The notes under the pieces: model-generated | The model's database searches: none | What the model was told of the DNA's origin: nothing | The model's input: the letters and a program-made list of their open reading frames with translations, nothing else | Source: Owenia fusiformis | Lineage: Eukaryota > Annelida > Polychaeta > Sabellida > Oweniidae | Direction of reading: 5' to 3' | Assembly: GCA_903813345.2 (NCBI GenBank) | Contig: CAIIXF020000011.1 | Location: 24,294,166 to 24,358,165 of the forward strand | DNA: 64,000 bases | Shown here: in pieces, positions 12,550 through 38,000 of the stretch | How the letters are laid out: each line of letters starts with the position of its first letter | Numbering within the stretch: the first letter of the stretch is position 1 | Program-made: the position numbers and the translations under genes

Positions 12550-14789
12550 ATGTTTGTGATTTTCTCTAAACAGGTGCTAGCCATAGGCCTGCTTTGTATG
12601 ATGTTTTCGGTCGTGATTTCTAAGCCAAAAAAGAAGCAAAAGAAGCCGACATGCTCCGAGCGTGTTAATAATGCGAAGGTAAGGCAAAAATCGCAAGTCG
12701 CAACAATCCAAATGGAAAATAAGACGGAGTTTTCTTCATTTAAAATTACGCCTTCACTTTACAAATCATTACATTATATAACCACAATTAATTTTTGTAT
12801 GTTAAGCAAAATACACAGTATACTTATGTATTCATTTTGATTTTCGTTTCTCGAGGTATAGAAGCAATGTCAGAAGCCTTATAAAACATGTTTGAGAACA
12901 GAATGATATATCTGTAGATGTGTTCAAACATTGGGAACGTTTTCAGGGAAAAAAGAAATGGTCTACGGTCTACTTCATGATCATCTTGTTTTTTATATTT
13001 ATCTCGGAACGATTAAATCTAATTATGATATAAACCTGGTCTTTCTTTAATATATCACAATGTTATTTTAGATGATGATCAGAAACCTACCAGTCCTCGA
13101 GGAGGAATGTAACGCTACCTTCAACCTGAACAAAATACCACCACCAGGTAAGGTACCTATAACTGTAAAGTTTAAAACGACATTTCCAAAACTTCAGCAA
13201 GATCAACGGGCTTTTTATTTCTTTAACTAAAATTTCCCAGGCAAAATATATAAAAAAATAAGATTGACCAGGGACCCAATAGGGAACATTTTAATGACCT
13301 GCATAAGTACGGTTAAACAGATATTTCATTCTTTAGGGACTCAAAAAACACAGATCAGAATGTCTAAAAAAGGCCAGGTACTCTAGCAGAAATAACCATT
13401 TAAAAATTTAATAATGCCTTAAGTGAATTGCAACTAGTGATATTTTTTCACTAAAAGCAATAATTCAACTAAGATCATTTTCTACAGTCTTACCGCCGAC
13501 AGCAAAAAAGCTGTGACTATAAAAAGTAATGGTCTTCCACTATAAATTCTACATGAAAAGTCGAACCGTCGCACCGGCCGATCAACTTTTTGAAACTTTC
13601 TGAACATTGACTCCTAAATATTGTTCAATTCATGTGAAAATCGGAAATTTAAAATTATTTGTAACTTATGCTGTTTCCGTACATCTCAAAGGTCAGTCAC
13701 TTTTTAAAAATGGTAATTTTAAAGCTTATGTCGTAATCTAAGATGTTTCGGATTACGTATACGTTCAATATTTTTCAGTTAATGTCAATGCTGTGTGGAC
13801 GACCTATGTGAGATGGGGGAGAACTGTATGCCCTGACACCGCTGAGTTGTTTTACGAAGGTAGGCAGGCTTTATGTTGCATTGTTCAAGGGTTTGAAACA
13901 AATCATTTGTAATTGACAATACTAATGCCTTGGTTATGCCTTGATCACATTTGCTCTGATTTATCGGCCGGCGCCCGGCCGATTGCAGTAATTGTTCAAA
14001 ACTGATTTGAACTTGTTTCAATAGCCTTTTTGAAAATCATGCATTCTCAGGGGTTCAATCTGACCTCAAATTTGAGATTTGACCTTCAATTTTGAACATA
14101 ATACTCAATCGGCCAGATCACATCTGCTCCAATTCATCGACCGGCGCCCGGCCGATTGCATATGTTCAAAACTGAATACAATTTTGACCCAGGCAGAAGG
14201 AAATATCAAGTGTTAAGTCTCAATATATTTCTTCCTTACATGTATCGCGAAATTATAGCAATTTTTACAAATATGTTTAGGTATAGCAGGTGGTTCAAGC
14301 CATAGCCACAGTGGAAGCGGAGCAAACTACGTCTGTTTGCCGAAGAAACCCGAGTGGGGAAAAATTATCGCTGGTCTCGGCGGTAGTGGAGCGTATATGT
14401 ATGGAGCCGAATATGAGTTAACTTCAGGTCACAGCAACCCTTTCCTCGCAACGAATGCCCCTAATACAGGAAATGCAGATTCGCTTCACGACAATGACGT
14501 CCCATGCGTAGTGTGTCAAATCCCAAGGGGAGTTTCGATGGTGCCGGCCAGACACTCATGCCCAACGGGTTGGACATTGGAGTACAAAGGCTATCTGGTG
14601 GCTGATCACCACACTCACCCTCGCAGCGCAGTCTTTGAATGCATGGATGAGGCTCCAGAAACAACTCAAGGTGGTCATGCAAGCCAAAACGGTGCACTTT
14701 TCTACTCTGTCCAAGCAGTATGTGGATCGCTGCCCTGTCCCGACTATATACAAGGCGGGGAGCTTACGTGTGCTGTCTGTTCCAAGTGA
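12550..14789 (+). CDS. Short-chain collagen C4-like secreted protein, gene 2
   Basis: Four exons, 12550-12678, 13072-13147, 13779-13859 and 14281-14789, have the same phases as gene 1 and encode about 264 residues. Exon 1: signal peptide (VLAIGLLCMMFSVVIS) followed by KPKKKQKKP. Exon 2: [19 protein letters not shown] with a possible N-glycosylation site (NAT). Exon 3: [19 protein letters not shown]. Exon 4: the Cys-rich domain, exactly as long as in genes 1 and 3 (509 nt), with [49 protein letters not shown] and terminal CAVCSK. Gene 2 is closer to gene 3 than to gene 1, including in the 3' flank. Intron 3 contains a direct repeat (see 13920-14165). Confidence 0.87.
13920..14165. repeat. Direct repeat with a CGGCCGGCGCCCGGCCG palindrome, intron 3 of gene 2
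   Basis: The segment GATCACATTTGCTC..CGGCCGGCGCCCGGCCGATTGCA (about 13945-13987) is repeated with changes at about 14112-14160. The GC-rich palindrome stands out in AT-rich surroundings. Confidence 0.6.
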
Positions 14790-16278: not shown

Positions 16279-16918
16279 TAACTCTAGCTTCTGGGTTGCA
16301 GGGAAAACGGATGTTAGAATATTGCTTCAATTAATTTTTTCTTGAAACCAGCTTAGGCTTATATATTCAGGATATCAATATTCTAGTATGCATTTCTAAC
16401 ATAAAGACAATAACAAAAGCCGAGTTTGTGGTATAAAATACATAGTAAAAGATGTTTCGACGGTTTATTTTACACAGCGCAAAAATATTTTTGTAATCCG
16501 TCACTCTGTGACATCATATTACAAATACCTGGCATAAAATAACAATGTTATGAGTCTATGATTTCATGCACTAGTGATTGTTTGTAATCAAAAATGTACT
16601 GAAATATTTGATCGCCAAGAGTGGTATAAAATACATCTTAGTAGAGGATGTTTCGATTGTAAAGTTATTTTTGTTATTCGTCACTCTTTGACATCATATT
16701 AGAAATACCTGGGATAAAATAAGAATGTTTATAAATCTTTATAATTTCATGCACTACTGAATTTTTGTAATCAAATTAAATATTTGATCGCCACGAGTAA
16801 ACAACAATATATAAAATATTATAGTATATCAAATTAAAATAATTTCACTACCATTTAAATGGTTATCTCGATATTGATAATTTAGATTATATATATTAAA
16901 CATAATTTTCTCATTAAT

Positions 16919-17125
16919 CTATGTCCATAAGGTTATAATTGATAGAATTAAAACACATGTGCTGATTGTCCATGTATTTCCACTGCTTGTGTCATATCGA
17001 GGCGTTTCAGGAATTGGATCAACTCTTGCCATCAACCAATCATATGCCTCCTTCTTTCCAGCGTTTTGTAACATTGGTCCAACAACATCTTTGCATTTTT
17101 GGTGGTACTTGTTAAGCCATTGTCT
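16919..17125 (-). CDS. XPNPEP2: Aminopeptidase P terminal exon, distal duplicate
   Basis: This is a second copy of the 3'-terminal exon, 207 nt including the TAG stop, with intact acceptor and coding sequence. In the parts compared it is identical to 19848-20054. It could serve as an alternative 3' end only if splicing or polyadenylation skips the proximal copy. Whether it is expressed cannot be told. Confidence 0.7.
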   Translation of the reverse strand, partial: RQWLNKYHQKCKDVVGPMLQNAGKKEAYDWLMARVDPIPETPRYDTSSGNTWTISTCVLILSIITLWT

Positions 17126-17448
17126 CTGCGTGAAAAATTAAAAGGTTATCTCCCGTTGAATTCAAATTCGTGACATAAACTTATCCCATAGGATTAGATT
17201 GTCTTTACCATTGTTCCTTACTAGAGAAAGGTACGTGTCTACGTGAGTACACGTACATTTCCGTCCAAAACAAAATGTACACTATTTCATTACTTGTTTA
17301 ACTTGAATTGAACTATCATTCAAACCCTACTGTAAAATAATATGGCAATTATAAAAGAGTGAAGTCGAACCCACATCCTCATATGCATAAGTCGAATTCT
17401 CTTACGTTGACGTCGTATTTTAATATTGGTGATTTAGATTTGTCATAC

Positions 17449-17547
17449 CTGACTGGCTGTCAACAGGTTAACGTCAATCAAATTCTTCTCGAACGGCACC
17501 AATGTCCATGCATCAAATGTCAACCATTGCTTGTTGCCAAAGTTATA
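17449..17547 (-). CDS. XPNPEP2: Aminopeptidase P penultimate exon, distal duplicate
   Basis: This copy of exon 20375-20473 (33 codons, [20 protein letters not shown]) differs by at least one synonymous change (CCAGTCAG against CCAGCCAG). Acceptor and donor are intact. Confidence 0.75.
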
Positions 17548-17698
17548 CTGTAAAATAAGGAATACCACATACGATCAGAAATGAGCTAGATGATCGTCAT
17601 TATAAAGAACCCGAATAACTCATCTTGATAAATCATGTAATCTAATTCCGTCTTCAGAAATTGTTGAAAAGATATATGATGAGTATAATAATGCTGTA

Positions 17699-18608
17699 GG
17701 GTGTTAAAAAAATGCAACCCAAAGAAATCGCTATATCTTGAAAAATACTGGTTCAATTATGTTCATATTTTCAGGAATAAAGAAGAGACTGTGTATGTAT
17801 AGCTCCTGTAAATGGTTAGTTGTAAAACATGATGCCTTGGACAGCTGCTCAAAAGACAGTTGTACTAGGAAAATACAAAAAACGCAGTCAGGGGTGACTG
17901 CAACCTCAAAAAAATTAAATAACTTTCTAACCATAATGTTTTGGCTCTTCAAATTTGGCACAAATCATTTTCATTCACTGTATGGTAAATCTGTAGAGTA
18001 AAATCAAAATCACTTCAGGGACATTACAGTCATGGTTGAAATGCTTTCAAATCGCAGTCAAACACCCTGGTTCAGGGAGACTTAAGAAGGCATTTTGACC
18101 ATGACTGTAAAGTCCCTGGAGTGGTTTTAATGAAACTCCACAAATTCACCACACATTGAATGAGGATAATTTGTGCCAAATCTGAAGTGCCAAAACACCA
18201 TGGTTAGAAAGTTATTTGGTTTTATTGCTGTGGCAGTCACCTCTGACTGCATTTACATATTTTCCGAGAACAACTGTCATTTGAGCAGGTGTCCAAGGCA
18301 TCATGTTTTACAACTTATTGACAACAGGAGCTATACATACACAGTCTCTTCTTTCTTTTCCTGAAAAATGAACATAATTGAATTACTATTTTCCAAGATA
18401 TAGTGATTTTCCATTCACGTTTTTCGTATTTTGCTAGTACAACTGTCTTTTGAGCAAGTGTCCAAGACATCATGTTTTACAACTAACTAACAACAGGGGC
18501 TATACATACACAGTCTCTTCTTTCTTTCCTGAAAATATGAACATAATTGGATGAGTATTCTCCGAGATATTGCGATTTCCTTGGGTTGCGTTTTTCTTTT
18601 GAACACCC
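17699..18608. mobile_element. 910-bp Tc/mariner-type non-autonomous element (GGGTGTTAAAAAAATGCAACCC)
   Basis: The inverted termini GGGTGTTAAAAAAATGCAAC and GTTGCGTTTTTCTTTTGAACACCC are flanked by TA on both sides, typical of Tc1/mariner. The interior holds inverted internal repeats (for example around 18010-18120) and no intact transposase; the small frames inside are spurious. The homologous position in the other duplicate (about 20623) lacks it. A related copy starts at 63392. Confidence 0.85.
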
Positions 18609-18704
18609 TACAAGAATCAGTTAGATTACAATTTCCCACAATACAAGCGCCCATATTTGCTTGTTGACCATCTCAAGGCTTCCATATCATCTCAACCCAA
18701 AGTC

Positions 18705-19000
18705 AACTCAACACTGGTGAAATCAATCAAACGCAACACTGGTAAAATCAATCAAACTCAACACTGGTAAAATCAATCAAACTCAACACTGGTAAAATCA
18801 ATCAAACTCAAGACTGGTAAAATCAATCAAACTCAACACTGGCAAAATCAATCAAACTCAACACTGGTAAAATCAATCAAACTCAACACTGGTAAAATCA
18901 ATCAAACTCAACACTGGTAAAATCAATCAAACTCAACACTGGTAAAATCAATCAAACTCAACACTGGTAAAATCAATCAAACTCAACACTGGTAAAATTG
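18705..19000. repeat. 25-bp minisatellite, short array (about 11 units)
   Basis: Tandem units of ACTCAACACTGGTAAAATCA plus ATCAA lie in the left copy of the segmental duplication, between the EPGYYEDG-type and YNFGNK-type exons. Confidence 0.95.
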
Positions 19001-19116
19001 AACTCCAAGTCAACTTGTTTGTTTTGTGATAAAAAAACGCAATCATATTTATTCGACCTTATCCAATTGAGGAAAGTATGGACAGACTTAAAAAGAGTTT
19101 CACAAGAGTAGCTTAC

Positions 19117-19170
19117 TGTTGTGGTAGCATTAACAACTTCTACGATTGTCTCTAGACGGATTCCGAACTT
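19117..19170 (-). pseudogene. XPNPEP2: Truncated EPGYYEDG exon at the duplication junction
   Basis: The donor and the 3' part of the exon ([18 protein letters not shown]) are present. The acceptor and EPGYYEDG, including the metal-ligand Glu, are cut off at the join with the MITE. The downstream duplicate therefore cannot make a complete active site by itself. Confidence 0.85.
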
Positions 19171-19847
19171 TTTCCGCACGGCGGCCGCAGGAAATGTGGC
19201 TGGGGTGTAACTCTAGCTTCTGGGTTGCAGGGAAAACGGATGTTAGAATATTGCTTCAATTAATTTTTTCTTGAAACCAGCTTAGGCTTATATATTCAGG
19301 ATATCAATATTCTAGTATGCATTTCTAACATAAAAACAATAACAAAAGCCGAGTTTGTGGTATAAAATACATAGTAAAAGATGTTTCGACGGTTTATTTT
19401 ACACAGCGCAAAAATATTTTTGTAATCCGTCACTCTGTGACATCATATTACAAATACCTGGCATAAAATAACAATGTTATGAGTCTATGATTTCATGCAC
19501 TAGTGATTGTTTGTAATCAAAAATGTACTGAAATATTTGATCGCCAAGAGTGGTATAAAATACATCTTAGTAGAGGATGTTTCGATTGTAAAGTTATTTT
19601 TGTTATTCGTCACTCTTTGACATCATATTAGAAATACCTGGGATAAAATAAGAATGTTTATAAATCTTTATAATTTCATGCACTACTGAATTTTTGTAAT
19701 CAAATTAAATATTTGATCGCCACGAGTAAACAACAATATATAAAATATTATAGTATATCAAATTAAAATAATTTCACTACCATTTAAATGGTTATCTCGA
19801 TATTGATAATTTAGATTATATATATTAAACATAATTTTCTCATTAAT

Positions 19848-20054
19848 CTATGTCCATAAGGTTATAATTGATAGAATTAAAACACATGTGCTGATTGTCC
19901 ATGTATTTCCACTGCTTGTGTCATATCGAGGCGTTTCAGGAATTGGATCAACTCTTGCCATCAACCAATCATATGCCTCCTTCTTTCCAGCGTTTTGTAA
20001 CATTGGTCCAACAACATCTTTGCATTTTTGGTGGTACTTGTTAAGCCATTGTCT
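19848..20054 (-). CDS. XPNPEP2: Aminopeptidase P terminal exon with GPI-signal-like tail
   Basis: 207 nt including TAG. Starts [20 protein letters not shown] and ends [20 protein letters not shown] before WT and the stop. A small-residue stretch (SSGN) followed by a hydrophobic tail and no cytoplasmic extension is the usual GPI-attachment layout, so a cell-surface enzyme is inferred. Confidence 0.93.
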   Translation of the reverse strand, partial: RQWLNKYHQKCKDVVGPMLQNAGKKEAYDWLMARVDPIPETPRYDTSSGNTWTISTCVLILSIITLWT

Positions 20055-23000
20055 CTGCGTGAAAAATAAAAAAGGTTATCTCCCGTTGAATTCATATTCG
20101 TGACATCAACTTAACCTACATGATTAGATTGTCTTTACCATTGTTCCTAACTAGAGAAAGGTACGTGTCTACGTGAGTACACGTACATTTCCGTCCAAAA
20201 ATGTACACAATTTCATTACTTGTTTAACTTGAATTGAACTATCATTCAAACCCTACTGAAAAAGAATAGGACAATGTTAAAAGAGTGAAGTCGAACCCAA
20301 ACCCTCAATTGCATTAGTCGAGTTCTCTTACGTTGACGACGTATATAAATATTGGTGATTTAAATATGTCATACCTGGCTGGCTGTCAACAGGTTAACGT
20401 CAATCAAATTCTTCTCGAACGGCACCAATGTCCATGCATCAAATGTCAACCATTGCTTGTTGCCAAAGTTATACTGTAAAATAAGGAATACCACATACGA
20501 TCAGAAATGAGCTAGATGATCGTCATGATAAAGAACCCGAATAACTCATCTTGATAAATCATGTAATCTAATTCCGTCTTCAGAAATTGTTGAAAAAATA
20601 TATGATGAGTATAATAATGCTATAAGAATTAGTTAGATTACAATTTCCCACAATATAAGCGCCCATATTTGCTTGTTGACCATCTCAAGGCTTCCATATC
20701 ATCTCAACCCAAAGTCAAACTCAACACTGGTAAAATCAATCAAACTCAACACCGGTAAAATCAATCAAACTCAACACTGGTAAAATCAATCGAACTCAAC
20801 ACTGGTAAAATCAATCAAACTCAACACTGGTAAAATCAATCAAACTCAACACTGGTAAAATCAATCAAACTCAACACTGGTAAAATCAATCAAACTCAAC
20901 ACTGGTAAAATCAATCAAACTCAACACTGGCAAAATCAATCAAACTCAACACTGGTAAAATCAATCAAACTCAACACTGGTAAAATCAATCAAACTCAAC
21001 ACTGGAAAATCAATCAAACTCAACACTGGTAAAATCAATCAAACTCAACACTGGAAAATCAATCAAACTCAACACTGGTAAAATCAATCAAACTCAACAG
21101 TGGTAAAATCAATCAAACTCAACACTGGTAAAATCAATCAAACTCAACACTGGTAAAATCAATCAAACTCAACACTAGTAAAATCAATCAAACTCAACAC
21201 TGGTAAAATCAATCAAACCCAACACTAGTAAAATCAATCAAACTCAACACTGGTAAAATCAATCAAACTCAACACTGGCAAAATCAATCAAACTCAACAC
21301 TGGTAAAATCAATCAAACTCAACACTGGTAAAATCAATCAAACTCAACACTGGTAAAATCAATCAAACTCAACACTGGTAAAATCAATCAAACTCAACAC
21401 TGGAAAATCAATCAAAATCAACACTGGTAAAATCAATCAAACTCAACACTTGTAAAATCAATCAAACTCAACACTGGTAAAATCAATCAAACTCAACACT
21501 GGTAAAATCAATCAAACTCAACACTGGTAAAATCAATCAAACTCAACACTGGTAAAATCAATCAAACTCAACACTGGCAAAATCAATCAAACTCAACACT
21601 GGTAAAATCAATCAAACTCAACACTGGTAAAATCAATCAAACTCAACACTGGAAAATCAATCAAACTCAACACTGGTAAAATCAATCAAACTCAACACTG
21701 GTAAAATCAATCAAACTCAACACTGGTAAAATCAATCAAACTCAACACTGGTAAAATCAATCAAACTCAACACTAGTAAAATCAATCAAACTCAACACTG
21801 GTAAAATCAATCAAACTCAACACTGGTAAAATCAATCAAACTCAACACTGGTAAAATCAATCAAACTCAACACTAGTAAAATCAATCGAACTCAACACTG
21901 GTAAAATCAATCAAACTCAACACTGGTAAAATCAATCAAACTCAACACTGGTCAAATCAATCAAACTCAATACTGGTAAAATTGAACTCCAAGTCAACTT
22001 GTTTGTTTTGTGATAAAAAAAACGTAATCATATTTATTCGACCTTATCCAATTGAGGAAAGTATGGACAGACTTAAAAAGAGTTTCGCAAGAGTAGCTTA
22101 CTGTTGTGGTAGCATTAACAACTTCTACGATTGTCTCTAGACGGATTCCGAACTTTCCATCTTCATAATAGCCAGGCTCTAAAATATCAATGGTTGTATT
22201 AATATCTATCATATAAGTATATATGCATAAAGTTTTAATTTATACAAAACGGTATTAAAAGCTAACATACTGTGATATTTATTGACAATATGAAATTTCT
22301 AATTTAATCTATTTTAGCATGGAATTAACAGACTCAACTATCATATTTAATTATCAAGAAAGTACATTAATGAATGGGCTTTTAATATTAACTGTTTAAA
22401 ATGTTGTTATGGGTTCATTCTACCCACCATCTGAATACCACTGTCCCTCATATAAAGGTTGTTCATAAGCGGTTTCTCTGTAGCCCATACTTATTCTACC
22501 AGGCCCCTCGTGCACATTGAGAAATGTACCAAGCCCGTGCCCTGTGCCGTGGCGGTAATCCAGACCAACAGAATACAAAGGGCCGCGTGCAAATACATCT
22601 ATATCCCGACCTGCATGCAAATTGGTTACGGGTGTGTAACTAAAGGGTAAGGTAGGTATTTAAAAGATAATTATGATGGTAAGGGACAGATTACTTTAGG
22701 TATTAAGCACACAGTTACATGTAGATTTCTTTGATAAAATATCTCTCATTACATGTTACAATGACCCACATTTGAGTATTTCAATGTTTTGAATGACACC
22801 AATTTAGTGTTCACATTAGACATGTTTAACTGTATGCTGGTTGTTAAAGGTGTTTATTGTTAAAGGGGGAGTGGAGGTTAAGATCAACGTGTTAAGGGTA
22901 AGGGTTATATCCGAGGCAAAGAAACTTGTTACTGTCACAAAAGCAAATATGAGTCCCCCTATCAGTGACACTTCCACAAGGCCCCAAACTAACTGGACAT

Positions 23001-26000
23001 GTGCCCCCAAAAGTTTGGCAAACAGAAATCCTCATTGGATAGTGTGTTAAAGCGAGTGATACACATGCTACACAACTGCTCAAACCCCAATGGAGGAATT
23101 ATGATCATGCAATAATACATATAGTCTTGCTTCAAGACTGTGGATAGTAATATAGTACTTGTATACACTTTACTCTGCTATGTAGCGACATCTTAATTTG
23201 ACTCTATAATTGATGATCATGCATTGTCCTATCTATAGAGCCTCGTCCAAGTCTCGTCTATGCCCTGTCTATGTTGTCACATCTAAATGGGATTCTAGAA
23301 TTGATGATCATGCAGTGTTCTGTCTCTCTATGCAACCGCATATAAGTACGTTACATGACTCTAAAATCGATGATCATGCAGTGTTGTGTCTATGTTACCT
23401 CATCTAAGTAGGCTACATGACTTTAGAATTGATGACAATGCAGTGTAGTGTCTATGTAGCCGCATCTATAAGTACGTTGGATAACTCTAGAGCTGATGAT
23501 CATGCAGTGTTGTGTCTATGTAGCCGCATTATTGGATGACTCTAGAATTGATGATCATGCAGTGTCCTGTCTCTCTATGCAACCGCATATAAGTACGGTA
23601 CATGACTCTAGAATCGATGATCATGCAGTGTTGTGTCTATGTTACCGCATCTAAGTAGGCTACATGACTTTAGAATTGATGACAATGCAGTGTAGTGTCT
23701 ATGTAGCCGCATCTATAAGTACGTTGGATAACTCTAGAGCTGATGATCATGCAGTGTCTTATCTCTCTATGTAACCGCATAAAAGTATGTTACATGACTC
23801 TAGAATTGATGATCATGCAGTGTTGTGCCTATGATACTGCATCTTAGTACGTACGTTACATGACTTTAGAATTGATGTTCATGCATTGTCGTGGTTATAA
23901 ACTATACAGCCACATAATGACTCTAGAACTGATAATCATATACATGTCGCATCGAAATCGATGATCATGAGGAATTGCATCTAGTTGTATCTAAGTAGGA
24001 GAAATCCCAATTAAAGCAGGATGAATAAATGTTTCATGCATTGGTGCACGAACCATCAGAATACCACTGTCCCTCGTAGAGTGGCTGTTCATATCTCGTA
24101 GGTCTGTAGCCAATACGTATCCTACCAGGCCCTTCGTGTACGTTGAGAAATGTTCCAAGTCCGTGCCCGGTACCATGGCGGTAATCCAGCCCAACAGAAT
24201 ATAAAGGGTCTCTGGCAATCACATCAATATCACGACCTACATATATATACATGTACAAAGTAAATTGGTGAGCAAGCACTAGTGCGTGTATATAAGTATT
24301 GTGTCTGTCACATTTATCATTGGTTGTGCTGGAAAAATTGTTCCATATGGGTAAAATCAGAAGAGTAGCCTTGTAAAATAAAAGTGTTGAAAATCATGCA
24401 TGCACGTACTAGAAAAGCAAGGTTGCATATGCCCATAGGCAAAGGTTTTATTGTAAGGTCCATTGTCTAATAAACTACTACTTAACCTCTGCCTATATGC
24501 AAATGTTCCATACCGTTCGGAACCAGTATGATGACTATATACACAATGATGTCATTATTCAATGCACTTATCATTGACTCTGCTAACATTTAAGAATGTC
24601 GCAAATAACTGATCGAAAGGCATGCGTATATGGTCACCATTTTAAACCATATATACGATTATGTGTACCGTCTGATAAAAACATTGCTTCTGCCAATGGC
24701 TGTTCATAAAATCTCTCATAGTAACTTATGCCGATTCTTGTAGGTCCCTCATGCACATTGAGAAAGGTTCCTATGCCATGACCTATACCATGTCTGAAGT
24801 TCATGCCAACTGACCACAATGACCCTGTTGCCATGATACCTATTGCTCTACCTGAAAGCCAACCCTGCTTCTTGATACTACATCGTGGAATATGATATGT
24901 TAAGTAGTATGAAGTGCATACAGTATTATAGGTCTGCCTAGCAAGGCTGGTAGCAGGCTGACCTATTGGATTCAATTATGTGAATCTAAAAATCAAAACG
25001 GATTAAAAAACACATATCTCCTGAAACAAGTCTATGTCGAGGCTCCTATCATACCAGTACTGCAAATAGGTGAAAACCCACATTGATGATAATATTCTGC
25101 TCAAGTGGAAAATGAAATTATTTTGTTCCACGGGGCTACTGACATACCATCAGAGAAAAACAGGGCCTCATATATTGGGGAATCAGCTCGGTCATGGTCT
25201 TGGGTGATATAACAAGTGCCTTCTAGAACATTGAGGACGACTGAGTACAAAGATTGCATAGCTTGCACATTTACAGACCTGCCTCGAAGACAAATGTACA
25301 AGCCCAAGTGAACATTTAAAACTCTCAGGTCTATTGGTTACCATTTTAGTTTGTTGTTACTAGAATCGATGCAATGTTGTTTCTAAAGGTCTGTAGCCAA
25401 TACAGAGCACTCTATCACATCAATATCACGACCTACATACCCTGTACTATGTATATGTACATACACAAATATGTGAAGTTGTGTGCAAGCACTAGTGCAT
25501 GTATCAATTGTGTCTGTGAAATTGATCAATGGTTGTGCTGCAAAACATTTCTCGAAAGGGATGCCATGTTTGCTGGTGGGTAAAATCAGCAAAAAGTAGC
25601 CTTGCAAAACAAAAGTGCGTATAATCATGCATGTACGCACTAGAAAAGCAAGAATACATGGCCAGAGGCAGAGGTTAAATAGTCGACTCCATTGATTAAT
25701 AAACAACTATGACACCTCCGCCTGTATACAAATGTTTCACACCATTCGGAACCAGTATGCATTAATGGTGACTATACTGTACACGATGATGTCATTAGTC
25801 AATGCATTTCTAATGGAATTTTCTCAGATTTGAGAATGGCACCCGAGCTGATTCAAAGGTATACGTATATGGTCACCATTTTAAACCATATATACGATTG
25901 TGTGTACCGTCTGATAAGAACATTACTTCTGCCAATGGTTGTTCATAAAATCCCTCAGAGTAACCCATCCCGATTCGTGTCGGTCCCTCATGCACATTGA

Positions 26001-29000
26001 GAAAGTTTCCTATCCCATGACCTATACCATGCCTGAAGTTCATGCCCACTGACCATAGAGACCTTGTTGCCATGGTACCAATTGCTCTAGCTGAAAGACC
26101 CTGCTGCTTGAAATAAGGTATTTTAAGTAATTTATAAAGTGCATATTTCAGGCCTGTCTGGCACAGCTAGTTGCATGTCGAACTGGCATAGAAAGTCGAA
26201 GCATGTCGAACTAGCATTAAAAAGACGCGCATGCGGAGACTTGGTTCAATTATCTAACCTAAAAGTAGAAATGGCTTAAAAAGTACCATACATCTCATAC
26301 AAATCTTTGTCCAAGCTCTTACTCAACCAGTACTTCACTAAGGTGAAGGCTCGCCCTAATGATGATATGCACCTGAAATACTGTACCACCGACGCTTACC
26401 TTCATATCAATATGTTATTACATCTATAAAGTGACTGTTAGCTGATTTATGGTCCAAAAACTAGTAGACATAGAAAGACACGTGACAAACATTTCATATT
26501 TAAAGGACTGGGTATAAGTAACTATAATATATGTTAAGAAAGAATTTATAGAGGTGGAAGAGTGTGGGTCAAGTGTTTAACATATATTTTGCATGGGTTG
26601 AAAGAATGAGAGTGAAATTCAAAGAATTCAGGAGTAAAATGCAATTCTAAAGATGATGAAATAATCTAAATATAGTTGGACAAGACTTCTGAGATGCCAC
26701 TACTGTAATTGGGAAAGAAGGGAATATATTAAAAAGAGAAAAAGTAAAATAGCGTTATCCCACAGGGCCATTGACATACCATCAGAGAAAAACATGGCCT
26801 CATACATTGGTGAATGGGCGCTGCTATAGCCTTGGCTGATAGAGCCGGGGCCTTCATGAACATTAAGGAAGATACCAATACCATGCCCGGTACCATGTCG
26901 AAAGTCCCAACCGACTGAATACAAAGGTTGCCTAGCTCGCACATCTACAGACCTGCCTGGATTACAAACGTATAAAACTAAAGTGATCATATTAAACTAC
27001 CAGGTCTATTGATCTTTACTGGTTTGGTTACTTTTTTTGATTTGTCGTTCCATCTTACTTTTAATTAAGGTTTGTGAACCCCTGATCATTGTTCCTTTGC
27101 AGATTATCAGGAGCTTAATTAATCATTTTAACAGTTTAGTATTTGGTTATTCTTATCTATGAGACATACTAATAAACTGTTTATCAGAAGTGTGTCCTGG
27201 TCTGCCATCTGCTAAAGGTATTTTTTCAGATATGCAAGACCTATACGTACCTCGACTTTTAAAAGTATTTTTTATAGTTTCATCTCAAAAGCATCTTATA
27301 TATATGGACAATAAACTAAATAATTAAAAGTATTTATGAAACCTAAAATATAGAATATTTATAAGTATTAACTGCCACTGAAAGCAAAAGCCTTGCTTAT
27401 TGTATCGGATTCTTGTCCAAGGGAACTTCAGCCTCATTGATAATACAAAGCGTAAAAAGCATTCAATATATAGGTCTCAGAGCAATATAAAAGATGGCAG
27501 TGCAGTGGTGTTGGTTTGATTATTTCAATAGAGATGAAGAGAAGGAAATAACCCAGGATTCAAAGATGAACTAAGATGCATGTAAAAATAAAGTTAGAAT
27601 ATAGGTTCATCTATGAATTCTGGGTAATTTTACTTCTTCTTAGAGAGAATATATGTAGACAGATCAATTTACTGCACTGCCGTCTTTTATTATTAATTAT
27701 ATGTCCATCTATATTCAAACATTATTTTATCGCCTGTTAGCCCTTGACTTAGTGTCAAAGTATAAGTTTCATCGGGCTTCTTTGCATACCATCTGAGAAA
27801 AACATTGCGTCATACATTGGTGTTTCATAGCCCATTGGGCGGTAACCTATGTTGATCCTTCCTGGGCCCTCGTGTACATTGAGAAATGTGCCTATGCCAT
27901 GGCCAGTACCATGACGATAGTCCCAACCGTTGGACCATAACGGACTACGAGCACGTACATCTATGTCTCTACCTAGATATGTAGTTTCATTGGAAGAAAT
28001 AACATGATACTTCTTCATATAGGTTATCCCACATCAAATAAAGAGCTACACCAACTCTGACTACATTCATAAGATGCTTTTCACTATAATAACTATGAAA
28101 ATCGGTTAAAAAATTATAATGGCAAAACTTTACATATTTTGAAAATATACTCGTACAATGTATATAATGTACATTAATCTAATATATATAAATATGAAGA
28201 ACTAAACTCTATATGCTTACCATATACTCCAACAGGCCAAACTGTGGTTGCAAGGTCTATCGCACCCATCAACACTCTCGTATAGGCTTCCTGAATTTCA
28301 AACATATTTATATTTTATTAATTTCTTAAATACAAGATGATACACTATACATGTGTCCGTGTATATTTAGCACACATGGCAACACGAATAAAAGTATAAA
28401 GGTACAAGATTTCGGTCTTCTAACAAAGAACAGAATAAAATCATTGGTCATATATTATGGCGTTAATCATAGAATCTCGATCTGTACTCCTTAACTAACA
28501 TACTATTTAATTTCCCCCTTCATTGGCTTTAATATATAGATTGTCATGATGTTAAAATGTTGATCTGGTCAGACTTTTTAAAAAGCTTTGCCATGAAGCG
28601 ACACATGCTTTGTTAAAACGTCGAGGGTTTCAGATTTAAAATTACATTATATTTGAAATCTAGTTTGTGGTACTTACTATTTCTTTAGCATCTGGTGTAC
28701 CGAAATGGAAAGTTCTTGTAACATCTGTGGTGCCATCCCTTAACAATTTAAATTAATAAGTCATTAATTCTGTAAATCAGTGATTGAAAACAAGAAAGGA
28801 AAGAAAGAAGCATTTGTACTGAGCATACCCACAAAATACAGAACAGTGAAGTATTTTTTTATCTGCTAATTCCTTTTTCCTCTTTCTATTCTTAGTAATG
28901 AAAAGAATGTATATTTTAAGAATGTTTATTTCAACTAAAAGTATTATCATATCTACTTATATAATCTAAATTATTAAAAACAAATACGCTACTATTTATG

Positions 29001-32000
29001 GTGTTTAAACTGCTTCTTTATTCGGTACATTAATATTCCATAAATACCAAATAAAACAAACAATTTACCAAACCTTTACCCAATTTATCGAATGTTTTTT
29101 TATTTTATCAAATGCAATAATCTATACAATTTATATTCGCTAAATAGTTTCACTTGTTCTTTGTATTGACATTCACATTTGATATTTATACATGTATTTG
29201 TGTGATGCAGCGAATCAATTTGTTTTCATTAACGCACGTATAATTCAATTAATTATTTGTACATTCGGTATTTGAATTATTTATATTCGGTAAATACCGA
29301 ATGCCACATTCGATAAATTTCGTTATTTTTCGATAATTTACGAGACTTTCAATCACGTGATATATTTGTACGATGTAGAATAGCTGCGCGGCCATTCTGC
29401 AAATCTCGAAGTCACGTGACAAAATATCGAACAACAACGCAAGTTATCGAATATTACTTTATTGCATTCGGTAAATAGCAAATTAGCTTTCGGTAAAATG
29501 CATTAACTATGTCATAGAAAAATAAACCATTTGGTAAATATAGGCAAACTTATTTCGGTAGGGTTCAAATAGAAATTCAATATTGTGCATATAATGTGTT
29601 ACTCTTAAGGAATACCATAACAATTTACGCAAAAAAATATAATTTAACGAATGAAATATGTAATTTAATGCACATAGTATTAAGTGATTGGCTATTTTGA
29701 AAACTTAATTTGCTGTAACAAACATATAAACGTTTTTACCGAATGGAAAAATGATTTAGCGAATATAAATGTTTCATATATCGAATATATTTGAATTTAA
29801 TGAATAAAGAAGCAAAAATAATGCCATAACTATTTAAGTCAATTATATCACAATACAAATGAGTATTTGCTACACAACTCACCACAACAAAATAAGATGT
29901 TCAATAATGTGAAACAAATGAAACTTATAACATTATTTCAAATCATTAGGCTATTACTTTTATTTCCTGAAAGGCAAAATACCAAGAAAATAAAGCAGAA
30001 AACAATAAGCATATAAGATATCGGCGAAGCAAAATCATTTTGGGAAAACAATGCAATCTGGATTTTCAATGACAACTAACCAGCTATCATAGCAAGTATC
30101 TACAAAAGGTGAAAAAGCTTGGTGAATATAAATGCTGTATTTAGTAAAGGAATCTTTATTATTAAATCTCACTTAGGTTGCAACACAATATAATGAACTG
30201 TAGTTTATTTTAAAGAATATCCAGCTGTAACAAATAGGTGCACAATCTTTTTTCCATTGTTTTTAAAGATTGAACACTTGGCAAGCTATCCAAAACCAGT
30301 GTGGCACAAATGACGATTGACTGTCACATGCAGGGCACTAAAGCTGAACTAATTATACCCTATGCACTCGTTCAATAGCTGAACAGTTAACACAAAGCAA
30401 ATCAAATTTTAAGCTGTACTTTTCCTGTAACATGCAGTGCACTGAATCTAAACTAATTACACTCACACACTTCTCGATACACTAACCTCGTAGTCAAAAA
30501 GAAAAATTGATCATGGACCATTTACCTTTCATAAGAGTCAGAGCCCACTGCGTGGTTTAAGTTAGATAAACCATTTGTATTGGGTCTTAGGAGAATCATT
30601 ATCATCTATATTATATTTATTTTTCCTAGAACCCAGTGCTCATAGTTTATGCCTAACATAATAACTCATACATGCATTTGGTGTATAAAAGGTTGATTCT
30701 TCTACCGGGAACATGCTAGGTAAAATCAAGACTGCTAACTACTATGTTGGGACTGCGTTCATGTCGGATTTTGCATGCATATGGAGTAACCTTGGGAGAA
30801 TTCACGGAATCCAAATTCCAAAGCAAAGCCAATCTTATCATCTAAAAGCTGAATATCATTCAAATATAAATGTACCACTTACAGGTACTGGCCACCGGAA
30901 TCCAAGAGAAAAGTTCCCTGGGTAGTGACTGGAGAGTTAGTCTGATTACTAGGTCTGTAATGAATTATAGCACCATTGGGTCCAAACCCTGCTATCGTGG
31001 AAAAACTGGCGCCATGGTTAGTAGGGTCACGTCTGAAATTCAAAGATACTCGTATTAAAGATTAAAGGATTCTCAAAATGCCGATACTGGTTTTCGAATG
31101 GATGTGTGTTTGTCCAATGTTCTGCTGTCCATTTGTTTTCCAAGATTATAAAACTGCAAGCAGAAATATTTCATTATTCGTGTAATAATCACATGAATGA
31201 AGGATGCGCATTTCGAGACAACCCAATAACTCACAATTTTGTACGCTGATTAACATCTAGTGAGGTGGTAACTGGTAATCTTGATATCATTGTTTATCTT
31301 ATGGCTGGTATACAATTAGAGTTTGCTTGTAGGTTTCATTACTACAACTTTTGGTCATTTCCCTTTACACACATGCTTTTAAAATTAGATTTGGATACAG
31401 TGTCTTGTATGCCTGTCCTTCCTTCAACAGTTCCTTAAATATTGTTGGAGTATTCAACTCCCATTTCTCTTTACTTACAAGTATTGGCCTCCTGAGTCGA
31501 GGAGAAACACTGCCGTCGTATTTATAGGGCTATTAGTAGCGTTATTCACTGAGTAGTGAATGATGGCTCCATTGGACCCAGATCCACTGATCGTGTCAAA
31601 ACTAGCTCCATGGTTCATGGGGTCACGCCTATTGGGCCAGGTTATATATTAATTTATTGCTAAGCATTATAGATATCAAGCATTGTGATATTTGAAAACA
31701 AATATACATGTATTTGGAAATAAATAAATAAAAGGCATTACACAATCTAATTATATTTTATTGAAATGATATGCTTCGAATTTTATTGTATAATTATATG
31801 AGTATCATTTGAAATCATGAAATGTAATTTTAACATAGCATTACATATATTCTAATAAATTAATATTATTCTCAATTGAACATGTATTTAAGGCCACATT
31901 ATAAAATGATACGTTGTAGTCCATCACACACATGACTTCTTAAAACAACCTTTTCATAACATCCATAAAACAATGATCTTACTGTCTGACTTTCAAGAGC

Positions 32001-35000
32001 TCTTCAACTGCTTGTAGTTCAGTCCATGGTGTCCCTGCTTTTACTTCACGCTCCAAACGTGCAGCAAACTCAATCACATGTGAAGAGTCTCTGGCTTGGC
32101 AGTTTCTCATCCCTTGTCGCTCGACTGGATTCTTTATGGCTTTCATCAAGAGCACGGGGGAAGCGCCCTCTATTACGTTAGTCTATGAAAGACGTGAAAG
32201 GGAGAAGTCAGTAATGAAGGGTTAAATAGTACTGTCGTAACTCAATGTTCATTACTAGTAAATTAAAGTGTAAAGAAGACTCATATCGAATATTGATGAT
32301 CTAAGTGATCATGTCTGATCTGATCATAGCCAGAATAATACTTAGATACACCAAACTACAATTTAATTTTGTTTTATCAGTAGTTCAAATCATAAACTAT
32401 TATCATTTGGACGAAGCGGAATCGGGTATTCCAATGAATTCATAATGCATTGCTTATATACTCAAAAAATACGGAAAAATGGTAAAATCGCATCCACATT
32501 TGAAAGAAAACCCAACGTACCGTGTTATTTTCCCCTTTATCAACTATAGCGTTATAGATGGACTACAACATTTGAAAGAAAGTCTAACGTACCTTGTTAT
32601 TTTCCCCTGTACCAACTATAGCGTTATAGATGGAGTAGCTCTGTACTGGGCTCACCCAGAAGTTATTAGTAGAGGCCACCATACCTTGTAGTTCAGAGAT
32701 GAACGCACTGTAGTCTTTCACCTAAAACATTCATACAATACATATAGCACATCGGGCCAGCCAATCCATGAAGATCATAGAAAGATCAGTGTTGTAAGTT
32801 TAGTATTTCGGCCGAATCAATCATCCTTGCATTCACACACATTACTTGGTTTTCAAATTTTGGTCATATAGAAATAAAAAAATAGTTTCGACAAGAACAT
32901 CTTTCTTATCATAAAATTTTAGAAACACTGCAATACCTTTTAATCAATCAAAATTGCGGTATTGTTTTTGCAATTTCACATCTATTTCTTTATCTGTTCT
33001 CTTTTTCATTTTAGCACTTAAATGCAATTCAATAATTGAGTTGATCATGAAGTCCTCCTATAGGGAATATTATCTACCTAATGTGTACAATAAATGTATA
33101 ACTATAGTATAGTATCTGCTGAGTTTCGAAATAACCCAAACCTCAAAATCATTGTGCATTATTAATACATTCATCCATTAGTAACAGCAGTTTCAACTAT
33201 GAATCATAAACGCAAGAAACTTCTGCAGGTTTGTTTACAAAAAATCATTAAAAGATTATCAACATATTAAGTCATAAAAATACAGCTGCCACGGCTAATA
33301 CAATACTTGATGTAACAATTTATTGTTTAATTTCACTTTTTGTGGTTTCCACTGAAACAAAAGTTGGAATTCTTTGTCAGAAAAATGTGGCAGAATGATT
33401 GATTTTTCAGAGATTGAAACAAAAAGGTAGCACATGTTACAATAACATGGTTGATTATCGGGCCTATCTCTTGATAAGCTGTAATTTAAAAAAATAATAT
33501 CACTGAATCTAAACAGTTTTTAGTAATGTCTAGCATCATGCTTCTCAAATTAGTCTGGCTGTTTTTATATATTCTTGTGATTTAAACATATTTTTGCATT
33601 TGTTTGCACAGTCAACAGCTGACGAAACAGATTTTTACAAAGAAACATGTTCGTGATTTTTTCTAAACAAGCGCTAGCCATAGGCCTACTTTGTTTGATG
33701 TTTTCGGTCGTGATTTCTAAGCCCAAAAAGAAGCAGAAGAAGCCGACATGCACTGAGCGTGTTAATAAAGCGGAGGTAAGACGAACACCCAGTCCCAATA
33801 ATCCAAATAAAATTCAAGAGGGAATTTTCGAAGAACCAATGCCTTTAATTGATAAATTACATTAATTTCAATTTTATTACTTTTATCTGTTTATTTTTAT
33901 TTTTGTTCCTAGAAGTTAGTGAACAATGAACCATTTTTCGAGAAAATTCTTTTGGTTTACACTAGCTACAGATTCATGATAACGCATGCTTTCTTGAATC
34001 TCGGAGTGATTGAATCTATGTTTAACTATGACCTCAACTGGATCTTCATGTAAAATACCACCATGTTATTTCATTTTATATTTCAGATGATGATCAAAAG
34101 TCTACCAGTCCTCGAGGAGGAATGTAATGCAACCTTCAACTTGAACAAGATACCACCTCCAGGTAAAGCACATATAACCGTATGTTTAGAACGATATTTT
34201 CTAAAACATCTACAAGATCACCAGACTTTTTAGTTTTCTTAAATGGCTTACTTAGGGTCAATACAACTCACGTGCGATTTGTTTTGGTCAATACAACTCA
34301 CGTGCGATTTGTTTTGGTCATGGTATAGGAAAAGTAGTACTTAAAACACTAGTTTGCTACTTTGTAGATGTATGGCACGTATATGTGTACATGCATTGAC
34401 AATTAATGTTTGGTAATAGCTAGAAGGAGTGTCAGGGACCGCTGACAGATTATAATTTTGAACCCAAAATTTGAATTATATTTTTGGCGGTCTCAGTAAA
34501 TCAATGATGTAATCAGGTCCTACGTGCTTTTTTCAGGCCCAGAAATCAATGCTCGCTTATAAATGTAGCAAAATCTTTTTTCGTTCGTGGGATATTTTTT
34601 TCACCATATAACCGAACGTGAAGTTTTTGAATAGGACTACATGATCTGAATGGATGCGAGGATTCGATGGGCTGGGATTTGAGAAATTATGATTTGAACT
34701 TTGCCAATTTTACATGTATTCCAATGGGTGAAAAAGTAAGTTGCTTTCTACCTAATATCAACCACATTTATTAGTGAATTTCGAGAAATATGTCGAATTT
34801 AGCCATATTTCGCATATCTTTCTATGGAACCATTTGACGTTTTTCAAATTAACCCCTAAAATTCTGGAGACGACGATCTAAATTTTGCTGAGTCAGCAAT
34901 TTTCGTTTTTTCATTGAAAACAGTACTTTTCAGCCTAAATTGCTACATTTCTGCTCTTTTATCAATTAATTTGATGCAGTTCTTGCCAAATTAAAGGAAA

Positions 35001-38000
35001 CATACCCCAAACGTTCTACAGTGTGCGAAGTTCCAACATTTTGACCCTTAAAACCCGCGAAACACCCAATTTTAAAGGGACGTATTCAGTAAACCTGCAC
35101 AAAAGACAATGCTACTTGAACTAGCCATCAGAACTTCATGAAAAACGAAAAATCAATGATGTTCAGTTTAGTAAAGTAGCAAGTAGTCGTACTCATGAGA
35201 GAATATAAATCACTTGTGCAATTTGTACAACTTTAAACAGCTGTTTTAAGTAGATTAGTATCGTTATGGGCAAAAACCCCCCAAAATAGCCCAAAATTTG
35301 TCCAAAAAATCAAATTTTTCATGCTCAAGGCTGAATTATTTTGTCTATTTTGCTACATTTATCAGTGCAGTGACAAGAAGTCTTGTGGATAGCGCAACTT
35401 TTCCTGAACGTTTCTCTAATAAGATATTTTAATGACAAAATAACTACATTTAGTCTGGAATAAATTGTCACAAAATATAATGACCCAAGGGGTCAAGAGA
35501 ACCCTATAAAATGAAAAGTGCTAAGGGGATTTGAGCAAAAATGTACATATCACTTCATAAAACCCCAAACTTTAAAATTCATATTGAACAAAATGCATAT
35601 TCAGTCAACCATGACACTAATAGGGTCAATACAACTCACGTGCGATTTGTTTTGGTCATGGTTTAGGAAAAGTAGTACTTAAAACACTAGTTTGCTACTT
35701 TGTAGATGTATGGCACGTATATGTGTACATGCATTGACAATTAATGTTTGGTAATAGCTAGAAGGAGTGTCAGGGACCGCTGACAGATTATAATTTTGAA
35801 CCCAAAATTTGAATTATATTTTTGGCGGTCTCAGTAAATCAATGATGTAATCAGGTCCTACGTGCTTTTTTCAGGCCCAGAAATCAATGCTCGCTTATAA
35901 ATGTAGCAAAATCTTTTTTCGTTCGTGGGATATTTTTTTCACCATATAACCGAACGTGAAGTTTTTGAATAGGTCTACATGATCTGAATGGATGCGAGGA
36001 TTCGATGGGCTGGGATTTGAGAAATTATGATTTGAACTTTGCCAATTTTACATGTATTCCAATGGGTGAAAAAGTAAGTTGCTTTCTACCTTAGTACATG
36101 TAAACGGATACTTAATTCCTATGGGACTTAAAAACACAAACCACGACGTCCAAAAAGAGGCCTAGTAGCCTACCACAATAAAACGATCAAAGAATTTAAA
36201 AGGGGGTATAAGATTGCTTCTTTTCACGTTAAATTATAGTTTCGGGATATAGGATATATGGGGTTTGTTTTTATAATGACTGATGTACATTGAGAGTTAA
36301 TTTTTTCTTGCTAGGACGCATTACAATTTATCACTTTCCCCTTGGCTTGAGATATTAATAATGCTTCAAGTGATCATAAAGTACGTTCAATATTTTTCAG
36401 TTAACGTCAATGCTGTGTGGACGACCTATGTGAGGTGGGGAAGAACTGTATGCCCTGACACCGCCGAGGTGTTTTACGAAGGTAGACAGTCTGCTATCGT
36501 TCAATGGCAAATTGTAATTGACATAACAAAGGGAAAATTAAGTGATAATTTAACTGTTTCACGAATTCATAGCAATTGTTGCAAATGTATTTAGGTATAG
36601 CCGGTGGTTCAGACCATGCTCATAGTGGAAGCGGAGCAAACTATGTCTGTTTGCCGAAGAAACCCGAGTGGGGGAAAATTGTTGCTGGTCTCGGCGGTAC
36701 TAGCGCGTATATATATGGAGCCGAATATCAGTTAAGTGCAGGCCATAGCAACCCATTCCTCGCAACGAATGCCCCAAATTCTGAAAATGCAGAATCGCTT
36801 CACGACAATGACGTACCGTGCGTAGTATGCCAAGTCCCAAGGGGCGTTTCAATGGTACCAGCCAGACACTCATGCCCAACGGGTTGGACATTGGAGTACA
36901 AAGGCTATCTGGTGGCTGGTCATTACAATCATCCCCGTAGCGGTATTTTTGAATGCATGGACGAGGCACCCGAGACGAGACAAGGCGGTCATGCAGACCA
37001 AAACGGTGCGCTTTTCTACTCTGTCCAAGCGGTATGTGGATCGCTGCCCTGTCCCGACTATATACATGGCGCGGAGCTGACATGTGCTGTCTGTTCTAAG
37101 TGAACTTGAAAAGTAATTGAAAATTATGTTTCATGGTTCTGTATCATTTGAAAGAATATGTCGCCCAAACCAATTAAAAAAATAAAACCTATTAATTACT
37201 AGCGAATTCGAAATTAAATGGAGGTACATGTACACTATTGAAAATTATAGTGAGCGAAACGTTATTATACATTACGATTTACGATGCTATATGTTTTGAA
37301 ATTGCTTTTTGCATATTATTTCTATAAGGATACCAGAAAATGAAATCACTGCAATGAATGAATATATTATTAGACTCCAGATGAAAATCTGGAGTCTATT
37401 GCTTTTGCCAGTTTTCTTATTATTATTATTAGACTCCAGATGAAATCTGGAGTCTATTGTTTTCGTCAGTTTTCTTATTCTTCTTCTTCTTATTATTCTA
37501 TACCAGTTTTCTCAATAACCATTAGGTTTTCAGTAAAGTCAATCATTTGGTCAATTTAGGTTCAGTATCTAGTTCCTCGGAAATTGGGTCAAATTTTTAT
37601 CTAGGTCAAAGGTCAAGAACTAGGTCAAATCCAGTACTTTGTCACTTTTTTCGATTTTCTCGGTCGTCCTTCAATATTTTCGATCCGGGTTTTTTTCATT
37701 GTGTTCCTTATAAAAAAGTAGAAATCCTAAGGTCGATTTAGTTTTTTGATATCTCAAACCGATTTCGAGATATCAGTGTCCGAAAACGAGGTCCAAAAAA
37801 AAGTTCTACGAATTAAATGGCCAGGATATTAGTCTTATAGGAAATTTTCTCAGGATTCCGAATCTGAAAACCAAATTTCGATCTGACTTCCCGTTCGGAA
37901 GTTATGGCGTTTTGAATGCTCAAAAATTGCTAAATTTGGTGCCCATGTTAAGTCAATGGGAAAAAAGATTTTTTTGAAGTGAAAAATACAAAATATAGAC

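Follow-up and report, generated by a model that had tools for sequence, protein, structure and literature searches.

Tandem copies of exons at three places in a predicted aminopeptidase P gene of the annelid Owenia fusiformis

The gene and its duplicated exons

A 64,000-nucleotide stretch of the Owenia fusiformis genome (the window: positions 24,294,166 to 24,358,165 of contig CAIIXF020000011.1, here C11, in assembly GCA_903813345.2) carries on its minus strand a predicted aminopeptidase P gene in which the exon with the catalytic histidines is repeated in a tandem array. The gene model was built on that strand with a sister gene on contig C5 as guide. It has 17 exon positions, x2 to x18, the array being the fourteenth, and the joined exons form a single open frame of 666 codons that ends two codons short of the stop. 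This open frame bears out the proposal of an earlier note on the window that a single gene is involved. A scan upstream of x2 for an exon with a start codon gave two candidate first exons, neither of them convincing.

In the form that includes the copies x3a, x12a, and c7 (listed below), the joined protein scores above cut-off for PF01321, PF16189, PF00557, and PF16188. Its domains run Creatinase_N, Creatinase_N_2, Peptidase_M24, Peptidase_M24_C, the order found in three-domain aminopeptidases P (M24B), and its nearest solved relative is human XPNPEP1 (3ctz), with an E-value of 3.3e-153 over query residues 12-639. The gene is, as predicted from its domains, a complete three-domain aminopeptidase P of family M24B, and X-Pro cleavage is the predicted activity of its product. 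It shares its three-domain plan with human XPNPEP1 (3ctz) and Caenorhabditis elegans APP-1 (4s2r), and the metal and catalytic residues of these enzymes are conserved in its constant exons and in six complete array copies. The exons, in the order of the gene, are as follows.

61860-61985, minus strand: exon x2, constant, first recovered coding exon; ends ...MNDQHQ, phase 0
60893-60956, minus strand: exon x3a, alternative copy 1; 64 nucleotides (nt), phase 0 to 1; 42.9% identity over 21 amino acids (aa) to the C5 exon
58969-59026, minus strand: exon x3b, alternative copy 2; 58 nt, phase 0 to 1
57947-58051, minus strand: exon x4, constant
57521-57613, minus strand: exon x5, constant
56625-56777, minus strand: exon x6, constant
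56086-56181, minus strand: exon x7, constant
54753-54837, minus strand: exon x8, constant; final unit of the minisatellite at 54772-55849, the one with a GT donor
54392-54500, minus strand: exon x9, constant
32593-32721, minus strand: exon x10, constant
31983-32182, minus strand: exon x11, constant
31479-31628, minus strand: exon x12a, alternative copy 1; ...FLLDSGGQY; substrate His and metal-ligand Asp; 150 nt
30883-31032, minus strand: exon x12b, alternative copy 2; ...FLLDSGGQY; 150 nt; 71% aa identity to x12a
28678-28738, minus strand: exon x13, constant; DGTTDVTRT, metal-ligand Asp
28221-28290, minus strand: exon x14, constant, precedes the array
27790-27972, minus strand: array copy c1, intact
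26780-26956, minus strand: array copy c2, intact, two residues shorter (177 nt)
25908-26090, minus strand: array copy c3, histidines intact, D/R/T changed to G/T/I; donor GTACAC
25387-25432, minus strand: relic of an eighth copy, c6-like scraps
25148-25282, minus strand: array copy c4, HGxGHG deleted, LEG in place of HEG; near-neutral when compared with c2
24669-24851, minus strand: array copy c5, sister of c3
24054-24236, minus strand: array copy c6, intact
22428-22610, minus strand: array copy c7, intact, sister of c6
22102-22178, minus strand: exon x16, constant, follows the array; two metal-ligand Glu
20375-20473, minus strand: exon x17, constant
19848-20054, minus strand: exon x18, last coding exon, with stop; hydrophobic tail resembling a glycosylphosphatidylinositol (GPI) signal, by eye

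Seven copies of the exon that carries HGxGHG and NVHEG lie between x14 and x16, from 27972 to 22428. Each of the seven is bordered by AG and GT, begins and ends in phase 1, has a length divisible by three, and closes with the G that completes a Glu codon of x16. We thereby recover the array much as the earlier note had described it, namely as seven spliceable phase-1 copies at 22428-27972 between two constant exons, with the same coordinates, borders, phases, and final G. Its count of six intact copies also stands: c1, c2, c3, c5, c6, and c7 keep all three histidines. Its description of these six as full-length needs amendment, since copy lengths are 183 nt in five, 177 in c2, and 135 in c4. 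In c4, HGxGHG is gone and LEG replaces HEG, and the frame is still open. The relic of an eighth copy consists of exact scraps (19/19 and 17/17 nt) matching c6.

The earlier note had taken the neighbouring exons to be single. This holds for x13 and x14; elsewhere in the gene, x12 and x3 each occur in two copies. The x12 copies, 150 nt each, run from phase 2 to phase 2 and share 71% protein identity. At x3, x3b is identical to x3a at 9 of 17 residues (52.9% over 17 aa; E about 0.005 in about 96 kb) and is supported also by its position, phase, and splice borders. It is two residues shorter and, depending on the alignment (the aligner and BLAST place it differently), its SEF is the equivalent of SEY in the family or this segment has been replaced. 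Both x3 copies are 3n+1 in length, so that including both, or none, in the joined mRNA causes a frameshift and a stop, and a full-length protein requires exactly one. At x3, at x12, and in the array alike, homologous exons of equal phase with their own splice sites lie next to one another, as in tandem-duplicated exons. As a control, 23 kb around the C5 sister gene contain one counterpart of x3a, one of x12 (in two pieces), and one of the array exon, the second half of which matches weakly (E 0.16). The additional clusters, missed by the earlier note, strengthen the case, and x3 adds a choice that is enforced by the frame.

The whole assembly (498,259,871 bases in 525 contigs) was searched with one joined peptide. 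At E<=10 there were 13 matches, ten to this gene and three to the C5 sister, counts that are lower bounds; six of the seven array copies are among the matches listed, from which c4 is absent, and the array is not a chance resemblance. The assembly yielded just one further gene of this three-domain type, alongside weaker matches below cut-off elsewhere. Past the M24_C domain the C-terminus of the C11 protein is hydrophobic and, by eye, GPI-signal-like, whereas in the C5 gene a stop is read directly after that domain. The C11 gene may therefore be of the membrane-anchored, XPNPEP2-like type and the C5 gene of the cytosolic type. On a third contig, C3:29490035-29505961 contains two adjacent Creatinase_N matches with M24 matches nearby, possibly two tandem X-Pro peptidase genes.

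Selection and active-site positions in the copies

Selection tests covered the array and x12 pairs. By the Nei-Gojobori method, the ratio of nonsynonymous to synonymous divergence (dN/dS) is at most 0.19 in the 15 pairs formed by the six complete array copies, with dS infinite in 10 of the 15; for c2/c4 it is 0.69. A codon model for the six complete copies, evaluated on an 8x3 grid (24 points), is best at omega 0.12 and kappa 1, with a log likelihood of -903.7 (free fit, -903.3), compared with -976.3 at omega 1 and kappa 2, about 70 log units worse. In pairwise likelihood tests, omega of 1 is rejected for c3/c5 (omega 0.195; twice the log-likelihood difference, 12.0), c6/c7 (0.059; 43.4), c1/c2 (0.10; 36.9), and x12a/x12b (0.124; 25.0), and is not rejected for c2/c4 (0.825; 0.2; 45 codons). 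The intact pairs tested, in the array and at x12, are thus under purifying selection, with omega of 0.06-0.2, and the copies that the earlier note singled out for their intact catalytic residues have been maintained by selection, with omega well below 1. Copy c4, near-neutral in its comparison with c2, looks to be decaying.

Comparison of exons with their surroundings separates older from younger duplications. Values of dS are 0.96 for c6/c7, 4.9 for c1/c2, and 2.7 for x12a/x12b. In four of the six pairs compared (c6/c7, c1/c2, c1/c6, and x12a/x12b) the exons are 67-81% identical and the 100-nt flanks 48-53%, the level reached by shuffled flanks (means of 52-53%). The flanks of the other two pairs remain partly alignable, at 57% and 77% for c3/c5 and 64% and 57% for c2/c4. 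A block duplication accounts for these: the series c2, c3, relic matches the series c4, c5, c6 through exons and introns, with 82% identity over 543 nt in the c3/c5 part and 78% in the following intron. As read from the alignments, c3/c5 and c2/c4 derive from this younger event, after which c4 and the relic decayed and c3 and c5 stayed. Over 142 sites, c3 and c5 show 9 nonsynonymous differences, where the intron rate would predict about 31 (p 5e-7); this yardstick scores gaps as differences and is somewhat generous. Taken together, the selection results argue that the copies are in use, but do not favour any one mode of splicing.

The positions that matter for catalysis were located by hand-counted alignment to human APP1 (XPNPEP1). 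In the human enzyme the metal-site residues are D415, D426, H489, E523, and E537, the second shell holds H395, H485, and H498, and Glu41 hydrogen-bonds His498 (PMC5774706). All five metal ligands and all three second-shell histidines are present in the c7 form. Equivalents of H395 and D415 fall in x12, those of H485, H489, and H498 in the array exon, together with the Trp477 position, and x3 corresponds to human residues 40-61, a segment of the N-terminal domain near the active site that includes Glu41. At the Trp477 position c1, c3, and c5 have W, as do 45 of 48 bacterial relatives, and c2, c4, c6, and c7 have Y.

A second map comes from C. elegans APP-1 (4s2r), for which the apstatin table lists 15 residues, Asp424 being listed without a contact value (PMC4404410). 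With the numbering shifted by 23, ten of these 15 positions fall in the exchanged exons (one in x3, four in x12, five in the array exon) and the other five in the constant exons x4, x13, and x16. The three clusters make up 131 of the 666 residues, or about 20%. Both tests of this concentration are post hoc: at the level of residues p is 8e-5, while the fairer test at the level of exons (three of 17, all among the six that hold listed residues) gives p 0.03. The end of the inhibitor points toward a solvent-exposed loop, 505-509, that is not resolved in the APP-1 structure (PMC4404410); by alignment, its equivalent is the part of the array exon that follows HEGP, which is strongly variable among the copies. 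The earlier note had placed the differences between copies around the active site, and by alignment that is where the variable positions map.

The family alignment of the array exon, which takes in all 48 bacterial loci, has 15 positions conserved in at least 90% of the relatives. Copy c1 departs from these at one position, c2, c6, and c7 at two each, c5 at four, c3 at five, and c4 at 13. Copies c3 and c5 have both lost D, R, and T residues, each present in 47 of 48 relatives, with the histidines kept and evolution constrained; c6 and c7 share Q in place of M. Judged by these patterns, the array copies look like distinct classes rather than products of random decay.

Repeats and other features of the window

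The region at 54.8-55.9 kb, where a PF16189 search finds ten copies, was considered as a second exon array and rejected. It is a recent minisatellite (54772-55849; unit about 100 bp, 97% matches) in which the x8 acceptor and up to the first 66 of the 85 nt of x8 are repeated about ten times without a donor, and these repeats are decoy acceptors before a constant exon. The 3' end of the gene has been copied by a recent tandem duplication of about 2.9 kb (16280-19171). It holds second copies of x17 (17547-17449) and x18 (17125-16928), 98.99% and 100% identical, and a truncated duplicate of x16, with 55 of 77 nt remaining and the acceptor end missing; we interpret it as a partial duplication of recent date that lies behind the gene. 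A 25-bp satellite occupies 20715-21982 (about 51 copies, in the intron after x16), and about 12 copies lie in its duplicate at 18705-18998. At 32496-32634 a 72-bp tandem duplication repeats the end of x10, with a GTACGT donor, and the intron between c6 and c7 holds a degenerate 66-bp / 192-bp minisatellite at 23294-23893.

Within the 21.7-kb intron between x9 and x10, on the strand of the gene, two identical 333-base open reading frames (ORFs) flank an ORF of 990 aa (39408-44366). By eye the latter resembles a retroelement polyprotein, which with the flanking repeats suggests a young long terminal repeat element. The same set of tandem repeats (units of 476 bp, 133 bp, and shorter) occurs on either side of it, at 37843-39283 and 47110-48550, 9,267 bases apart. 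Three related plus-strand ORFs lie at 8396-8914, 14337-14789, and 36576-37103, the third opposite the strand of the gene in the same intron. We presume these to resemble short-chain collagen C4-like proteins; those at 8396-8914 and 36576-37103 have no Pfam match. A tRNA scan of the window found none.

Proposed splicing of the copies and comparison with known systems

We consider it probable that this single aminopeptidase P gene has three exon clusters of which one copy each is spliced in, for up to 24 enzymes. The spliceosome would pick one of two copies at x3, one of two at x12, and one of the six catalytically complete copies of the array (2x2x6 = 24). The resulting full-length enzymes would share their scaffold and metal chemistry, would vary in the substrate-site walls and at a dimer-contact position, and might differ in peptide preference. 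We infer both the expression of the copies and the choice of one of each from genomic DNA; the frame enforces the choice at x3 alone. To a further proposal we give somewhat better than even chances: that the active site is assembled combinatorially from three independently duplicated clusters (2 x 2 x 6), one gene serving as a peptidase family, with c3 and c5 as a specificity class of their own.

Several observations weigh against the choice of one copy per cluster or bear on how it would be enforced. Exon length is a multiple of three in the array and at x12, as the earlier note had pointed out for the array, so the frame survives double inclusion and does not enforce exclusivity there. The introns that separate the copies measure 296-1443 nt within the array, 446 nt between the x12 copies, and 1866 nt between the x3 copies, which makes exclusion by the steric effect of very short introns unlikely. 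The earlier note had suggested looking for complementary docking and selector sequences in the array introns; for such pairing, of the kind seen at Dscam exon 6, a coarse scan in this one species, using 300-nt stretches and a site pairing with at least five of the six introns, gave nothing above 24 shuffles, as 15/24 and 4/24 shuffles did as well. The donors of c3 and c5 (GTACAC) match the consensus at 5 of 9 positions, the weakest of the gene, and those of c1 and c6 at 6 of 9, compared with 6 to 9 of 9 for the constant exons; donors as weak as those of c3 and c5 would fit regulated exons, or poor ones. Glu41, an x3 residue, is reported as dispensable for catalysis in the human enzyme (PMC5774706). 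The x3 pair is short and stands outside the selection tests, and c4 shows that copies can die, such that others might be rarely used.

That just a single copy per cluster is in use, the others being leftovers of exon duplication that have yet to decay, seems unlikely. The state of c4 and of the relic, and the weakness of some donors, would suit it, but c6/c7, c1/c2, and x12a/x12b keep an omega of 0.06-0.12 despite large dS, the flanks of those pairs are randomised and the exons are not, and c3 and c5 did not decay after the block duplication when two other copies visibly did. We rate as equally unlikely an alternative splicing that is not exclusive, by which an mRNA would take up several copies, repeating the catalytic segment, or skip the cluster. 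Any number of array or x12 exons, which are of equal phase, keeps the frame. The array segment, however, lies inside the catalytic domain, and its motif is present exactly once in 47 of 48 bacterial relatives, the 48th locus ending before the motif; skipping the array would lose all three histidines, and combining the x3 copies gives a stop.

A role for some copies as alternative last exons, in which intronic polyadenylation would yield truncated, inactive, or decoy proteins, is very improbable. Read-through beyond each of the seven donors does stop within 2-26 codons, and A[A/T]TAAA occurs within 600 nt after three of the six complete copies (98 nt beyond c1, 216 nt beyond c5, and in six places beyond c7). 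Yet it is lacking over that distance after c2, c3, and c6, AT-rich introns would be expected to contain such signals by chance, the products would be without the metal-ligand Glu residues of x16, and all seven copies retain a GT donor as well as the terminal G required for the Glu codon. An artefact of assembly, with paralogues or haplotypes collapsed into one locus, is scarcely credible. Near-identical recent repeats do exist here, in the x8 minisatellite and the 2.9-kb duplication of the 3' end, but the copies differ by 11-38% in DNA (six pairs compared), their order and phases are consistent with one gene, and the matches listed include neither another set of flanking exons nor, apart from the C5 sister, a copy on any other contig.

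The proposed choice among three clusters has partial precedents. The insect muscle myosin heavy chain gene, Mhc, likewise has several clusters of mutually exclusive tandem exons in one enzyme gene and many isoforms, with five to nine clusters in arthropods, one of which adjoins the ATP site (PMC2257972). Mhc, however, encodes an arthropod motor protein and has expressed sequence tag support, whereas the gene described here encodes a metallopeptidase predicted from genomic DNA, and its exchanged exons contain catalytic histidines and a metal ligand. In human UGT1A, too, tandem substrate-site exons are joined to constant exons to give many enzyme variants, but these are thirteen alternative first exons with their own promoters (PMC9013439), compared with three internal clusters. 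The oyster alternative oxidase CvAOX offers an invertebrate case of a duplicated, alternatively spliced exon with one copy altered around functional sites; there the duplication is confined to two last exons at a single site (PMC5589949), against 2 + 2 + 7 copies in three internal places. In human tandem duplicated exon substitutions, as proposed here, homologous exons are exchanged and the rest of the protein is constant, but the exchanged regions tend to avoid ligand-binding residues, holding 14% of residues and 10.7% of predicted functional residues (PMC9741552); in the aminopeptidase P, about 20% of residues hold ten of the 15 listed contact positions.

Searches of the open literature, with most subscription papers outside their scope, turned up no alternative versions of aminopeptidase P exons, in keeping with the earlier note, which knew of no described case in this enzyme. 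Tandem alternative exons are already known; what seems new is the presence of catalytic residues in the exons that a peptidase gene would exchange, and this at several clusters. Selection has kept several versions of exons with catalytic and metal residues, at more than one place in one enzyme gene. If the proposed splicing is true, the gene would amount to a combinatorial library of a single peptidase formed by nature, and it would allow a direct test of the idea that a panel of enzyme specificities can arise by splicing instead of gene duplication.

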